Positions 693 to 20,016 of a DNA stretch of 20,554 bases are shown here, piece after piece. The stretch's first letter is position 1. Each line of letters begins with the position of its first letter. This DNA is from a virus: positions 1 through 20,554 of IMG/VR virus record IMGVR_UViG_3300042691_027845. One strand, given 5' to 3'. The notes beneath the pieces were generated by a model that saw nothing but the letters and a program-made list of their open reading frames with translations, was not told where the DNA came from and did not search any database. A program made the translations under genes and the position numbers.

Positions 693-1286
693 TTAATGAC
701 CAATAGCACCACAACCTTTAGTTAATTTTGTTGCACTAAAAATATCTGCTGGACTTTCATAACCACAACCACTAGAAACATCTTCAAAATAGACATAACA
801 AAATTTAGTGTTCCTAGAAGCGGGGCTTATTGATATATAACAATAGTTTTTATCACATTTAAAACTAGGAACTCCCGCATATTCACCGCTTACGGATTTT
901 TTCAGCATATCCATTTCAAAATTTTGTAACCATGCCATAAATCCGCCAAGTCTAATTACGTCTTGTGACCTTAATCTTTCTCCATCATTTACAGATACTT
1001 GCTGTCCATTATTTAGCCAACATCCTCCATGAACTCCTAAATAAAAAGAATCACCACCTTTCTCTTTTTGAATGATTTTATCTAACATTGCATCATCAAA
1101 TTCTTGTGTTGTAGAAAAATTTAAATTTCCCCCTGCGACATATTTATATTGCCCTTCACTTGTTAAAGTCTGAGATTTTATTGTTAACGGATTTGTTGAT
1201 AGATTTTCTTGATCTTGATGTCCCACACACGAGACTAACGATGATGCCATTATAATACTTATGGCTACTTTTTGATGTAACTGCAT
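693..1286 (-). CDS. Lipoprotein inserted between two fibre genes (probable moron)
   Basis: I take the ATG at 1286 because it has a good ribosome site, TAGGAG at 1292-1297, five bases upstream; the longer reading to 1319 has none. The 197-residue product begins MQLHQKVAISIIMASSLVSC. This is a short basic start, a hydrophobic core and a lipobox LVSC with the lipidated Cys at 20. Residue +2 after the Cys is Val rather than Asp, so the Lol rule predicts the outer membrane, with the chain in the periplasm or on the surface. Six further Cys suggest up to three disulfides. I recognise no family. Its place between fibre genes and its private promoter suggest a conversion or superinfection-exclusion gene, as with the T5 lipoprotein Llp, which masks the receptor FhuA. 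That function is an inference; a host-derived or virion-linked lipoprotein is possible. Confidence 0.75.
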   Translation of the reverse strand: MQLHQKVAISIIMASSLVSCVGHQDQENLSTNPLTIKSQTLTSEGQYKYVAGGNLNFSTTQEFDDAMLDKIIQKEKGGDSFYLGVHGGCWLNNGQQVSVNDGERLRSQDVIRLGGFMAWLQNFEMDMLKKSVSGEYAGVPSFKCDKNYCYISISPASRNTKFCYVYFEDVSSGCGYESPADIFSATKLTKGCGAIGH

Positions 1287-1304
1287 ATATACTCCTAAAT
1301 ATTG

Positions 1305-1328
1305 CTGACAGACAAACAATAGTCTGTC
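1305..1328. repeat. Perfect inverted repeat at the start of the lipoprotein message (candidate operator)
   Basis: GACAGAC at 1307-1313 (plus strand) and GTCTGTC at 1322-1328 form a perfect 7-base dyad around 8 bases. On the outer left it is extended by CT (1305-1306), which recurs nearby at 1332-1335 as part of TCAG. On the minus strand it lies about +2 to +25 relative to the predicted start of the lipoprotein promoter and just before the ribosome site. No T-run follows, so it is not a terminator. It could be a repressor site or a leader hairpin. Confidence 0.5.
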
Positions 1329-8038: not shown

Positions 8039-9762
8039 TTTTTGTAAGCTCCCACATTATTAAGTTGTAAACTTAGCCAATCTTTTTTATTCACACTTTT
8101 TACTGCAGACACTATTTTCCCTGCATCTTTAGTATCTACACCATTAATAGTAATATTCTGCGTTAAGTTAACGTTTGCTTTTTGCATAATATCTTCTGCG
8201 TATCCGTTATAACTGCCCCCAGTCTGCATATAATGTTTCATTCCACCATAGCCACCATTATAATAAGCAAGTCCAGACCCTACTAACTGTTCTTGAGATA
8301 ATTGCATGTGATTTTTATTAGCATATTGTAAAGCTCTTTCCATACCCTGCCGTAAGTATTTATCTCTTAGCATTTTGTTAGTATCATAATCAAATAATTC
8401 ATCAGCCGTATATTGCTTACCACCTATCTCATTGGCAGTTTTTGGCATTAATTGAAATGCACCAAGTTCTCCACTACTGCCAACAGCATAATTATACCCA
8501 CCGCTTTCTTTCATTCGTTGAGCGTTTGTCAATTGAGGGTTATTAATTAAAGCAGATAATAGATCATTTCCAGTCTTGCTGATGTTACTATTTCCCAATA
8601 AATGATTGATTTGTGGGGTAAGATCATCTCTTCCGCTTTTAACATCTAAATCTGGGATAGTACCTTTTATTAGATCATATAGCCAAGTCTGCTTGTAAGC
8701 TTTGTAAGCATCTTGCCCAAATTTTGATTGATTTTTTGTTGTACCGCCCCACATCGACCAATTTGAACCGTGAAAAGATTCTTTCAATACTTCTTTAAAA
8801 TCATGCCCGACATCAAATAAAGTATCAGCATAAGTTAAAGTTTTTGCAAACGTCTTCTTTGCTTTATTTTTCCATGTTTGAAGTTCTGCATCAGCTTTCA
8901 TAGCTTCTTCAGCTTCTTTATCTGTAGTCGCAGTTGTTGTTTCTGCTTTGTTTATTGCAGGTAGTAAATTTGGTTGTAGCAATTGATGAGCAGTTACTGT
9001 ACTTACACCCAATGCTTTTTGTAACATACCCTCTTGAGCTAATGGCGTCAGTGTTCTTAATGATTGAGATTGTAATATATCTAATATGTATTTGTTTGTT
9101 TGCTTTTCTGAGCCATCTGCATTTTTATTAGATATACCTAACAATGTGTTTACTCTTGTTAAGTATTGCATTGCTTGAGAAGCTACAACTGCATCAGGAG
9201 AGAATTGATCTGTTTGCATTTGTGCAATTCTGGCAAATAATTGATCTGTTTCTCCTGCATCAATACCTACCTGTCTTGCACCTTGTTGAAAAGCTGATAG
9301 TTTATTAGGGGTTGTATGTAAACCACCAGACTTATAACCCAATTGTGCATTATCACTTATAGCATTTACAAACGCACGACCAGTTAATCCTATACCTAAA
9401 GCACCTGCCATTGAAGATAGTCCACCAAATGAATTTTTAACAAACCCATTTATCTGATTGCTATTTTCATTAAAGAAGTTTTTAAATCGTTGCGTTGAAC
9501 CTGTTAAAAACTCAGCAAAGCTATTTGTGGCTTTCTTGGTGTTTTGTTGTACTTGTTCAGTAGCATCTTGTGCGGTCTTAGCATTATCTTGAAAAGTTTC
9601 TTTTACCTTTTCTTTATGACCTTTTAAGTGCTTATCAAAGGTTTCACCCATCTTAGAAGATGTTGACTTAGCTTTTTGCTCTATTTTATTTAAGCTACTA
9701 TCAAGCTCGTCAGTATCGACATCTACGCCAATGGTAAAATCTAAATCTTTATCGTCAGACAT
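8035..9762 (-). CDS. Tape-measure protein with a lytic transglycosylase (SLT) domain
   Basis: A 575-residue protein. The N-terminal 100 residues are a Gln/Lys/Thr-rich helix typical of tape measures, followed by a Gly/Ala hydrophobic stretch at 111-136. Residues about 400-530 are an SLT goose-lysozyme-like domain: RMKESGGYNYAVGSSGELGAFQLMPKTA (catalytic Glu 419; GAFQLMP 434-440), then VGSGLAYYNGGYGG near 494-507, the AYNGG motif. This domain cuts peptidoglycan glycan strands during DNA entry. The ATG at 9762 overlaps the frameshift extension of the chaperone and has GAGG nine bases upstream. At about 1.5 Å per residue the helix predicts a short tail, below 90 nm. Placement of the enzyme near the C-terminus is common for tape measures. 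Confidence 0.9.
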   Translation of the reverse strand: MSDDKDLDFTIGVDVDTDELDSSLNKIEQKAKSTSSKMGETFDKHLKGHKEKVKETFQDNAKTAQDATEQVQQNTKKATNSFAEFLTGSTQRFKNFFNENSNQINGFVKNSFGGLSSMAGALGIGLTGRAFVNAISDNAQLGYKSGGLHTTPNKLSAFQQGARQVGIDAGETDQLFARIAQMQTDQFSPDAVVASQAMQYLTRVNTLLGISNKNADGSEKQTNKYILDILQSQSLRTLTPLAQEGMLQKALGVSTVTAHQLLQPNLLPAINKAETTTATTDKEAEEAMKADAELQTWKNKAKKTFAKTLTYADTLFDVGHDFKEVLKESFHGSNWSMWGGTTKNQSKFGQDAYKAYKQTWLYDLIKGTIPDLDVKSGRDDLTPQINHLLGNSNISKTGNDLLSALINNPQLTNAQRMKESGGYNYAVGSSGELGAFQLMPKTANEIGGKQYTADELFDYDTNKMLRDKYLRQGMERALQYANKNHMQLSQEQLVGSGLAYYNGGYGGMKHYMQTGGSYNGYAEDIMQKANVNLTQNITINGVDTKDAGKIVSAVKSVNKKDWLSLQLNNVGAYKN

Positions 9763-9985
9763 TATTATTTGCCTCTGTTTCTTTGTCTATTATATATTGA
9801 TTGTATGATGAGATTTCTAATTCATGCAACATCATTACATAATCTTCTAGCCTGTATGCTTTTATATCTCGCACCAGAATATACTTATTGATTAATAACT
9901 TTATCGTAGGTAAGCTAAACATCTTATAGACAGCTAATTTATTCAATGATTCTTCTGATAAATCATTACTGCTGTCTCTTGCTAC
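9755..9985 (-). CDS. -1 frame extension of the tail assembly chaperone (GT-type)
   Basis: This frame has no plausible start of its own. Its first start-like codon is a TTG at 9946 inside the inner stem of the frameshift hairpin, with no Shine-Dalgarno. In contrast, the -1 frame is fully open from the slippery site at 9985-9991 to its stop at 9755. After the shift the chain continues VARDSSNDLSEESLNKLAV and ends 76 residues later, so the fused product has 278 residues. The stop overlaps the tape-measure ATG. In known tails (lambda G/GT, Mu gp41/gp42) the longer product is made rarely and helps wrap or recruit the tape measure before tube assembly. The 63-76 residue length is typical of the T part of small tails. 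Confidence 0.85.
   Translation of the reverse strand, partial: VARDSSNDLSEESLNKLAVYKMFSLPTIKLLINKYILVRDIKAYRLEDYVMMLHELEISSYNQYIIDKETEANNNV
9928..9977 (-). promoter_or_regulatory. Frameshift-stimulating two-stem RNA structure
   Basis: On the minus strand AGACAGC (9971-9977) pairs with GCTGTCT (9928-9934), and inside this AATGATT (9961-9967) pairs with AATCATT (9945-9951) around a nine-base loop. Internal bulges are three and ten bases. The outer stem begins exactly seven bases after the slippery heptamer, the usual spacing for a stimulatory structure that pauses the ribosome. Confidence 0.78.
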
Positions 9986-10590
9986 TTTTTTACTTGCAAT
10001 GACCCAATGATCTTTTTAACTGCACTGCCATATCTTTTTTGTAATATTTGATAAGCTAGTGTGTAAATCTCAATCTTATTAAACAATCCTTGCAATACTT
10101 GAATATTCTCTAAACTATACTTAGCATCACCCTCATATACAGTAACACCAGTAAATACCACTTTTAAAGTTGAATTGATAATATTATTAAAGTATCTTTC
10201 TTTCGCTATATCATATTCTTGTTGAGATAAATTGTTGTTAATATCGCAACTATAATTACCTATGATTGCATTGTTCATAATAGTATTAATAAAATACTCT
10301 ATACTGAATTTTGATGCCATATCTTTTAATGATTCTATGATCTCTTCATTATCAATAAAGCCACCAGATAAAAAAGAATTGAACATAGTCAACAATATTA
10401 AATGCCATATTTTTAATTCACACTCATTAAAGTTTTTATTTACATTGCAAAAACTTAATAACACTGGGTATATATCCATCAAACTATCCTCTGCATTTAT
10501 ATCAGCAATAGTTATTGTTTTACCTTTATATACGATTTGTTCTGGTAATTTCTCATTCATTAATTTATCATAAGACGTTTGGTTGCTCAT
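9982..10590 (-). CDS. Tail assembly chaperone, short (zero-frame) product
   Basis: I place the start at ATG 10590 (MSNQTSYDKLMNEKLPEQ), with AAAAGGA about eight bases upstream; a TTG six codons earlier has no ribosome site. The 202-residue protein is mostly helical and lies between the tube gene and the tape measure, where tail assembly chaperones of contractile and long non-contractile phages are always encoded. Sequence likeness between such chaperones is poor, so the assignment rests on position and on the frameshift signal at its 3' end, which is the hallmark of the class. The short form would be made at a large excess over the 278-residue form. It is an assembly factor and should not be in the finished virion. 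Confidence 0.85.
   Translation of the reverse strand: MSNQTSYDKLMNEKLPEQIVYKGKTITIADINAEDSLMDIYPVLLSFCNVNKNFNECELKIWHLILLTMFNSFLSGGFIDNEEIIESLKDMASKFSIEYFINTIMNNAIIGNYSCDINNNLSQQEYDIAKERYFNNIINSTLKVVFTGVTVYEGDAKYSLENIQVLQGLFNKIEIYTLAYQILQKRYGSAVKKIIGSLQVKK
9985..9991 (-). promoter_or_regulatory. Slippery heptamer A AAA AAG for -1 ribosomal frameshifting
   Basis: The zero-frame codons are GTA AAA AAG TAG, so the heptamer is A AAA AAG, the most efficient type in enteric bacteria (as in dnaX). The UAG stop at 9982-9984 follows immediately. Tandem slippage re-pairs both lysine tRNAs on AAA AAA, and the next codon is GTA in the -1 frame. A stem-loop follows after seven bases. Confidence 0.88.
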
Positions 10591-15783: not shown

Positions 15784-17157
15784 TTAATTTGCCAAATTAT
15801 ATATTTTCACGTATTGAGAAAATGGTATAAACAACCCTGTGTATTGAGTCATATATACATAAGTTTGTACAGTTCCTTGCGTTTGTGGAGTTCCAATTGG
15901 TGATAACTCACGAGAAAATATTTCCATAGCTGGGTTATTTTGACGATCTTTCACAAAAGCTGTAGCAATCATAACGTCATTAGGTAATCCAGTCATGTTA
16001 GCTTCTAATGTAGATGATGCTTCAAAGCTAAAATTAAGATTTGAAGATATTACATTTTTAACAGCCAACGGAAATTGACTAAATAATCGTAAAAACATTG
16101 TTAATTTAGCGGGTGGCATTATAAATTTAACTTCTAATGTTAAATCCGCATGACCCTTTAAAATAAACAAATAATCATTTAATATAGCAACAAAGTTATT
16201 ATATACGTTGTAAGCATTCGATAAATCAGGAAGTGGTAAATCTTGTCTAGCAATACCCCAGCTTAAATAACCTTTTATCCCTGCAGGAGCATAACCCAAC
16301 GCTATCATCAAGTCTTTTTTGTTTCTATCAGACATCATTGCTAGTTCTGTTTTATCAGCAAACAAATCAATACCAGCTCTACCCATTTCACCTTGTTCTT
16401 CAATACCAATTGATACTGTTTCTTGGAATCTAGCAACGGGTAATAAGTCAGCCATGATGTTCATGTTTGTATAACCCTCATATTGACCATCAGCATACAT
16501 TGTAATGTCTTCAAGACCATTCATTGTGTAATCTTTGAACATAACTTGTAATGCTTTAATCCATAGCGAACCTGCTTGAATAGTTTCACCAACATATTCA
16601 CGCATTGTTAACTTACGCATCATGTAAGAAAACATACGATTTCTTGGCAATACTTCAACTAACATAGAATAAGGAACACCCTGCACAGTTGGGTTGTTGC
16701 TATCCATTACTGCATTTACTTCATGCTTGTTTTGTTCGTCAATATAAAGCATTGGACGAGCAGACCCATCTTCTGCAACATGACTTAACCCTTTGTTAAC
16801 AGTACATCTATAGTTAGATTCCATGTTATCCACAGCAATACTAGAATACATTTCTTTCTTAGTATCCATAGATACCTGTACACCTAACATTGATTGAAAA
16901 GATTTTGCAGTGGCTTTATTGTCTAACCCTAATTCTTTTCTAATACAAACTTTTGTACCATCTGATTTAACATAATTATCCCAAGCTAAATTTTTATAAC
17001 TATCCTCAGTCAACATCTCAGTATTTTCTTGAGCCATGTCTAAAGCATATTGCTGTCTTGCTTGAAAAGTTTCTTTTAATGCACTGTTTCCCATCTTCTT
17101 AGAAATAGAATCAGATGCCGAAGTATTGAATTTTTGTTTTTTATATATGTTTAACAT
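15784..17157 (-). CDS. Major capsid protein (DUF2184-type, HK97 fold expected)
   Basis: A 457-residue protein starting just after the decoration stop, with GGGGG as a possible ribosome site before the ATG. Position after protease/scaffold and decoration genes, size, and the absence of membrane or enzyme motifs support the capsid call. Residues about 195-225 (MREYVGETIQAGSLWIKALQVMF) and 250-290 (ARFQETVSIGIEEQGEMGRAGIDLFADKTELAMMSDRNK) fit the pattern of DUF2184 capsid subunits. There the latter block is an E-loop and A-domain step ending in the helix LMIALG. The C-terminus forms strands (QTYVYMTQYTGLFIPFSQYVKIYNLAN). The N-terminal 60-100 residues may be a delta region cut by the nested protease, but I see no decisive cleavage site. 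Confidence 0.85.
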   Translation of the reverse strand: MLNIYKKQKFNTSASDSISKKMGNSALKETFQARQQYALDMAQENTEMLTEDSYKNLAWDNYVKSDGTKVCIRKELGLDNKATAKSFQSMLGVQVSMDTKKEMYSSIAVDNMESNYRCTVNKGLSHVAEDGSARPMLYIDEQNKHEVNAVMDSNNPTVQGVPYSMLVEVLPRNRMFSYMMRKLTMREYVGETIQAGSLWIKALQVMFKDYTMNGLEDITMYADGQYEGYTNMNIMADLLPVARFQETVSIGIEEQGEMGRAGIDLFADKTELAMMSDRNKKDLMIALGYAPAGIKGYLSWGIARQDLPLPDLSNAYNVYNNFVAILNDYLFILKGHADLTLEVKFIMPPAKLTMFLRLFSQFPLAVKNVISSNLNFSFEASSTLEANMTGLPNDVMIATAFVKDRQNNPAMEIFSRELSPIGTPQTQGTVQTYVYMTQYTGLFIPFSQYVKIYNLAN

Positions 17158-19311: not shown

Positions 19312-20016
19312 CTATTTATTATTATCAATGATTTTATCTAATTCATTCTTTATTTCTTTTAATATTTCATTTTTAAGAAATTGATTATTTAATTTTAATA
19401 CATCATCAAAAATGTTTTCTTTTGTAGACGTCTGCTTTTTATCAAAAGTCATTCTTCTTATTAAGGTATCTAACAATTCATCTTTAAAAGAATTGGGTAA
19501 TTGCTTGACTATACTAAAAATAGCCAATAAAGTATAATGATTCCAATCATTGATTTCATCAACTAAATTATATATAAAATCTTGATTATCTCGTGATTTT
19601 TCAACAAGACTAAGACCAAGATCTTCGCCTATTTCTTTAAATTTTAATTCACATGGTTTAAAAGGTCTAAAAGCATAATTTTCTTTATTTGTAGAAAAAC
19701 ACATTTTAGTAAAACTCTTATTGCTTAATTGTTCTTGTACTTTCTCTAAATCGGTATCATCATGCCCGCATTTAATTGGAGACAAATAAGCATTATATAA
19801 AGTAAATACTGTGTTTTTATCTTTAAGCTTTTTTAGTTTTATGTCCATGGGTACATTTGATTGTTTTTTTAAATCTATATCACAATCTTCTTCTTGTGCA
19901 TGTCGATTTTTTTCTCTTTCAAGAATATCGGTAGCAAAATCTTTTATTTCTTCAATCGACATATTACACAAACCTTCAAGATACTCTCTCTCTGGATTAT
20001 ATTCTTTTTTGCTCAT
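19312..20016 (-). CDS. Unrecognised 234-residue protein inserted in the head module
   Basis: I do not recognise this gene. The ATG at 20016 has AAAAGGA about seven bases upstream, and the upstream stop lies 12 bases before. The product is hydrophilic and mainly helical: residues 15-45 (LCNMSIEEIKDFATDILEREKNRH), a middle part with several Cys (LSPIKCGHDD, FTKMCFST, FKPCELKF), and a Lys/Asn/Glu-rich C-terminal helix region (ENIFDDVLKLNNQFLKNEILKEIKNELDKIIDNNK). There is no signal peptide and no membrane segment. It sits between a minor head gene and the protease, with a hairpin-rich gap after it, which is more like an inserted cargo gene than a core virion part. Function is unknown; an injected or conversion protein is one guess. 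Confidence 0.6.
   Translation of the reverse strand: MSKKEYNPEREYLEGLCNMSIEEIKDFATDILEREKNRHAQEEDCDIDLKKQSNVPMDIKLKKLKDKNTVFTLYNAYLSPIKCGHDDTDLEKVQEQLSNKSFTKMCFSTNKENYAFRPFKPCELKFKEIGEDLGLSLVEKSRDNQDFIYNLVDEINDWNHYTLLAIFSIVKQLPNSFKDELLDTLIRRMTFDKKQTSTKENIFDDVLKLNNQFLKNEILKEIKNELDKIIDNNK

Follow-up and report, generated by a model that had tools for sequence, protein, structure and literature searches.

We have found that an uncultured virus, an AT-rich contractile-tailed phage by its genes, very probably relies on -1 programmed ribosomal frameshifting to express the gene pair for its tail assembly chaperone. Several lines agree in support of this reading: where the gene lies, the frame of its extension, the slippery heptamer, the extension's homology with those of relatives, and the recurrence of this layout in 112 related loci. 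The stretch of DNA that was analysed, here called the window, is a 20.5-kb uncultured-virus record (IMG/VR IMGVR_UViG_3300042691_027845) with 32% G+C that is coding mainly on the minus strand, where all features given below are located.

The window contains the gene set of a contractile-tailed phage, with a Mu-F-like head protein, DUF2213, a DUF3383 sheath, a tape measure with a transglycosylase domain and a baseplate hub, and there is also a weak baseplate-J-like match. The chaperone gene lies between tail tube and tape measure, as in systems of the lambda G/GT type. A tail sheath of 550 aa (13092-11440; DUF3383, Pfam PF11863 E 2e-29, phrog_205 E 2e-26) is followed by a putative tail tube of 271 aa (11429-10614), a putative tail assembly chaperone of 202 aa (10590-9982) and a tape measure or lytic tail protein of 575 aa with a transglycosylase SLT domain (9762-8035; phrog_2013 E 1e-12, Pfam SLT E 1e-5). 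The presumed tube gene lies between sheath and chaperone, as it does in the relatives described below, and gave no meaningful family match in the PHROG and Pfam searches; its product is much longer than the approximately 150 aa found in the relatives, and has a Gln/Lys-rich C-terminal part. The chaperone gene, also placed as in the relatives, starts with ATG at 10590 and ends with TAG at 9984-9982, and the AAAGGA upstream of it is a ribosome-binding site. Elsewhere in the window, the 457-aa protein at the major-capsid position (15784-17157, minus strand) was matched neither in Pfam nor, by tblastn, in phage records, and an ORF downstream of the tail genes (693-1319, minus strand) has a signal-peptide and lipobox-like start (SIIMASSLVSC) and is possibly a lipoprotein.

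The zero-frame gene ends with GTA AAA AAG TAG, so that a slippery heptamer A_AAA_AAG in the X_XXY_YYZ phase (9991-9985) directly precedes the stop codon, and it is the sole canonical heptamer within the overlap of the zero and -1 frames (10015-9982). Of the heptamers tested in E. coli, this one shifts most readily, and it is the site used in dnaX (PMC5009743). The -1 frame is open from 10015, the nearest upstream stop being a TAA 24 nt before the heptamer, and the extension of 76 codons (9985-9755, VARDSS...NNNV) ends with a TGA at 9757-9755 that overlaps the tape-measure ATG at 9762 (ATGTCTGA). The +1 frame closes 23 nt after the heptamer start, and no frame other than -1 reaches the tape measure without a stop. 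The initial annotation of this DNA had described the gene end with the heptamer abutting the stop, the open -1 frame up to the tape-measure start, and products of 202 and 278 residues; the gene end proved exact to the base, the frame runs as described, and both sizes are right (202 + 76 = 278). An imperfect second site, T_AAA_AAG (10018-10012), is found about 20 nt before the heptamer, exactly at the point where the -1 frame becomes open behind the TAA; a low level of slippage at this site would alter the junction slightly. A Shine-Dalgarno-like stimulator was also looked for, and only a GGG about 11 nt upstream of the heptamer was seen, with no GGAG or AGGA.

In-phase A_AAA_AAG is not rare across a window as AT-rich as this one, occurring at two of the 6257 in-phase positions of its genes where codon shuffles give an expectation of 1.9, and one of the two falls in the zero/-1 overlap of about 10 codons. 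In the gene at 19312-20016 (minus strand), an early in-phase run gives both A_AAA_AAA and A_AAA_AAG. A canonical XXXYYYZ of any kind occurs at 0.77% of positions, which corresponds to a probability of about 8% for finding one in the overlap by chance. An open -1 frame of 76 codons has a probability of about 0.001 from the base composition. The codon usage of the extension is weaker than in typical genes of the window, yet within range, as 11% of the true codon windows were as low and 6% of the off-frame ones as high. No single signal is decisive, but position, frame, heptamer and spacing all point the same way, and taken together they make a strong case.

Close relatives were not found by direct scans of viral_contigs, phages and plasmids with the chaperone, sheath and capsid proteins, and tblastn gave no matches for the capsid and tape measure in phages or for the sheath in plasmids. 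The DUF3383 sheath was the query that led to relatives: 80 viral loci were reached by aligning distant sheath proteins, and 32 loci in bacterial genomes by another alignment. These 112 contractile-tailed phage or prophage loci with a DUF3383 sheath (113 with the window) share the order of tube, chaperone, -1 extension and tape measure; in them a chaperone-sized gene is followed by a -1 extension whose end coincides with the tape-measure start and which is recognised by the extension profile, and isolate genomes are included. The profile was built from 26 of the 112 loci and without the window, and those 26 match it by construction. That the -1 frame is open, that it closes at the tape measure and that heptamers are present does not depend on the profile. 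In three relatives taken as representative (L007, L011 and L063), the zero-frame gene matches phrog_1932, "tail assembly chaperone", with E 1e-44 to 1e-52. After dereplication 47 relatives are left, and 40 of them have a canonical heptamer in the overlap (T_TTT_TTN, G_GGT_TTT, A_AAT_TTN or A_AAA_AAG). With the window included, heptamers are 12 times as dense in the overlap (45 in 1837 positions) as elsewhere in the gene (11 in 5410). The shared arrangement indicates that -1 frameshifting of the chaperone is the rule among these phages. Seven dereplicated relatives (L009, L022, L027, L081, L086, L099 and L108) have kept the -1 extension and have no canonical heptamer in the overlap; several of them have T_TTT_TC where others have T_TTT_TTN, which suggests a weaker site. 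Concerning annotation, phrog_3976, which is listed as of unknown function, corresponds to the -1 extension (T-like part) of the phrog_1932 chaperone in DUF3383-sheath phages, with the extension at L007:8314-8541 and its homologues split off as a separate gene.

The recurrence in relatives bears on two other explanations of the broken frame. A sequencing or assembly indel in the run of six A could have split one in-frame gene, since homopolymers are error-prone and the window is a single uncultured-virus record for which close relatives were not found. The same -1 break is, however, seen at the same gene position in 112 independent loci, isolate genomes among them, and we consider such an error exceedingly improbable. 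RNA polymerase could also add one A at the same run, so that a part of the mRNA would encode the 278-aa protein, and adding one base does reach the -1 frame. Efficient polymerase slippage usually needs about 8-9 A or T, though, and six is short; the phased sites of the relatives have no long homopolymer (GGGTTTT, AAATTTC), and the codon phase of the heptamer together with the stem downstream of it fits ribosomal slippage, which makes slippage by the polymerase very unlikely.

The candidate stimulatory stem-loop is located at 9977-9928, beginning 7 nt after the heptamer. Nested stems had been proposed here from the outset, and all their elements were confirmed: an outer 7-bp stem AGACAGC/GCTGTCT (9977-9971/9934-9928), an inner stem AATGATT/AATCATT (9967-9961/9951-9945), which reaches 9 bp via two G-U pairs, and a 7-nt spacer (TAGCAAG). 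The 60-nt fold has -14.7 kcal/mol and a z of -3.1, and 2.6% of the 60-mers of the window are equally stable; among its 20504 50-mers, only 46 combine an initial stem of 5 bp or more with a fold this stable. When 101 nt are folded, the result is nothing unusual (z -1.5). By these different tests the probability that the stem-loop has arisen by chance is about 0.2-3%, that is, fairly unlikely. Stimulatory structures usually begin 5-8 nt downstream (PMC4066793), and the spacer of 7 nt is within this range for a signal of A_AAA_AAG plus a stem-loop of the dnaX or IS911 type. An Rfam scan and a terminator scan of the region were without match, so the stem-loop belongs to no recognised RNA family and is no intrinsic terminator.

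The stem also matters for a rival reading, in which ribosomes that have terminated at the TAG reinitiate at an internal start (TTG 9946 or ATG 9922) and translate the extension as a small gene of its own. ORF-listing tools do list a 63-aa ORF at the extension, a weak AGAAG-like purine stretch precedes TTG 9946, and the annotation of Pantoea phage PA-1 lists the homologous extension as a "hypothetical" gene in its own right. On the other hand, TTG 9946 sits in the 3' arm of the inner stem and ATG 9922, six bases past the stem, is without a Shine-Dalgarno sequence, and a separate start would leave unexplained why a phased heptamer falls exactly into the overlap, both in the window and in 40 of the 47 relatives; we therefore hold a separate gene to be highly improbable. 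On these grounds we rejected all three, the separate gene, the transcriptional slippage and the assembly indel.

The stem is not characteristic of the family, and most of the relatives score near shuffled sequence. Those with T_TTT_TTN mostly have z between -1.7 and +1.8, with a few exceptions that include L115 and L098, and among the relatives with other heptamers L019 and L004 are exceptions. The other AT-rich relative (L018), which is the only other user of A_AAA_AAG, has no stem. As the stem is absent as a general feature in the relatives, that of the window is a plausible local addition to the frameshift signal. Certain tailed phages shift without stimulators (PMC5009743).

Whether the window belongs with these phages was judged separately for the extension and for the body of the protein. 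When the profile of the relatives' extensions was used, the extension of the window was the best of the 341 six-frame segments of the window (E 0.05), and it came 12th of 5001 when ranked with its own shuffles (11 of 5000 score higher, p about 0.002). With hhalign, the comparison of the window's extension with the same profile gave P 1.5e-4 and 2.6e-4. The shared core aligns AYRLEDYVMMLHELEISSYNQYIID of the window with vYgxEDlxxLlEIIxVdxyNxxvi of the relatives (core EDxxxxL...xxxxxN). We take the homology of the extensions to be significant but modest, and the similarity is distant, since a direct PHROGs scan of the window's extension gave no match. Modelled with its alignment, from which rows from the phage collection were left out, the extension is predicted to be mostly helical with moderate confidence (pLDDT 69, pTM 0.48). 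The 202-aa body did not match phrog_1932 at E 0.1 or better or any family at a useful score in the PHROG and Pfam searches, and was negative against the TAC profile and the chaperones of the relatives by hmmsearch, hhalign and BLAST. Its single-sequence AlphaFold model is unusable (mean pLDDT 37); it shows a beta hairpin and then helices, which would suit a chaperone but proves nothing. Because the extension is shared and the body unmatched, we call the gene a frameshifted chaperone and leave its body outside phrog_1932. We infer from the gene order and the extension, not from its own sequence, that the zero-frame protein is a chaperone, and the window is an ordinary, if highly diverged, member of the lambda G/GT-type system.

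Most long-tailed phages are known to use a frameshifted tail-chaperone pair. The -1 frameshift of the lambda G/GT tail assembly chaperone was reportedly described by Xu, Hendrix and Duda in 2004, 2013 and 2014. It has been reviewed (PMC5009743): both products, the short and the extended one at about 30:1, attach to the tape measure, and the tube protein is bound by the extension. The window is like lambda in having the gene before the tape measure, predicted short and -1-extended products, a canonical heptamer, and an extension that ends at the tape-measure start. It differs in that A_AAA_AAG touches the stop, in its predicted downstream stem-loop and contractile-tail gene set, and in a body without detectable sequence similarity to known TAC bodies. 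The initial annotation had held that lambda G/GT and Mu gp41/42 use the same strategy in the same place. For lambda this stands, and Mu, a contractile-tailed phage, does have a chaperone frameshift in the same place, but it shifts by -2 and not by -1 as would the window (PMC5009743). The phages with a DUF3383 sheath (phrog_1932 plus phrog_3976), such as Pantoea phage PA-1 and the Photorhabdus and Xenorhabdus prophages, agree with the window in gene order, -1 direction and extension length, and their extension core is homologous. In most of them the heptamer is T_TTT_TTN or G_GGT_TTT, at a distance of 18-21 nt or more from the end of the stop codon, and notable downstream structure is mostly lacking, and the body in the window is too diverged to match theirs. 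E. coli dnaX and elements of the IS911/IS3 type share A_AAA_AAG and a stem-loop at 5-8 nt with the window, in which no convincing upstream Shine-Dalgarno-like stimulator is visible; in addition, dnaX shifts to a near stop, while the shift in the window would bypass one.

If ribosomes do slip in this way, most of them would stop at the TAG and give the 202-aa chaperone. A minority would slip back one base on A_AAA_AAG, with lysyl-tRNA re-pairing from AAA/AAG to AAA/AAA, pass the TAG out of frame and add 76 residues, giving a fusion of 278 aa. The stem-loop 7 nt downstream would probably make slipping more frequent, as it would hold the ribosome at the heptamer. If the products act as in lambda G/GT, the short form would coat the tape-measure protein and the fusion would recruit the tail tube subunit, so that the slip rate would set the ratio between them.

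The distance from the heptamer to the end of the stop codon is 3 nt in the window, which means contact, whereas the last heptamer of the relatives is most often at 18-21 nt and their smallest value is 6 nt, at an alternative site in L004. A stop abutting the -1 heptamer is thus extreme for these relatives but already known elsewhere: Rous sarcoma virus and barley yellow dwarf virus also have the zero-frame stop directly after the slippery heptamer, although they are eukaryotic viruses with other heptamers and structures, and no relationship is implied. The earlier remark that release and slippage compete in this tight arrangement is sound, if not new, and a stop in this place may lower the yield via release. 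It is conceivable, although we think it rather unlikely, that the TAG is a part of the control, with the UAG (a release factor 1 stop) entering the A site before or during slippage, the chaperone ratio being set by competition between termination and slipping, and the stem-loop offsetting the loss. This would be an unusual tuning for a tail chaperone. Competition between release and slippage has so far been studied mainly in engineered HIV-1 constructs, and the contact between heptamer and stop is a compact natural test of it in bacteria.

Our analysis would add to the phages with a frameshifted tail chaperone a highly diverged, AT-rich one, in which the body of the chaperone is unrecognisable by sequence. 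A slippery site and its extension can identify the chaperone gene where homology fails.
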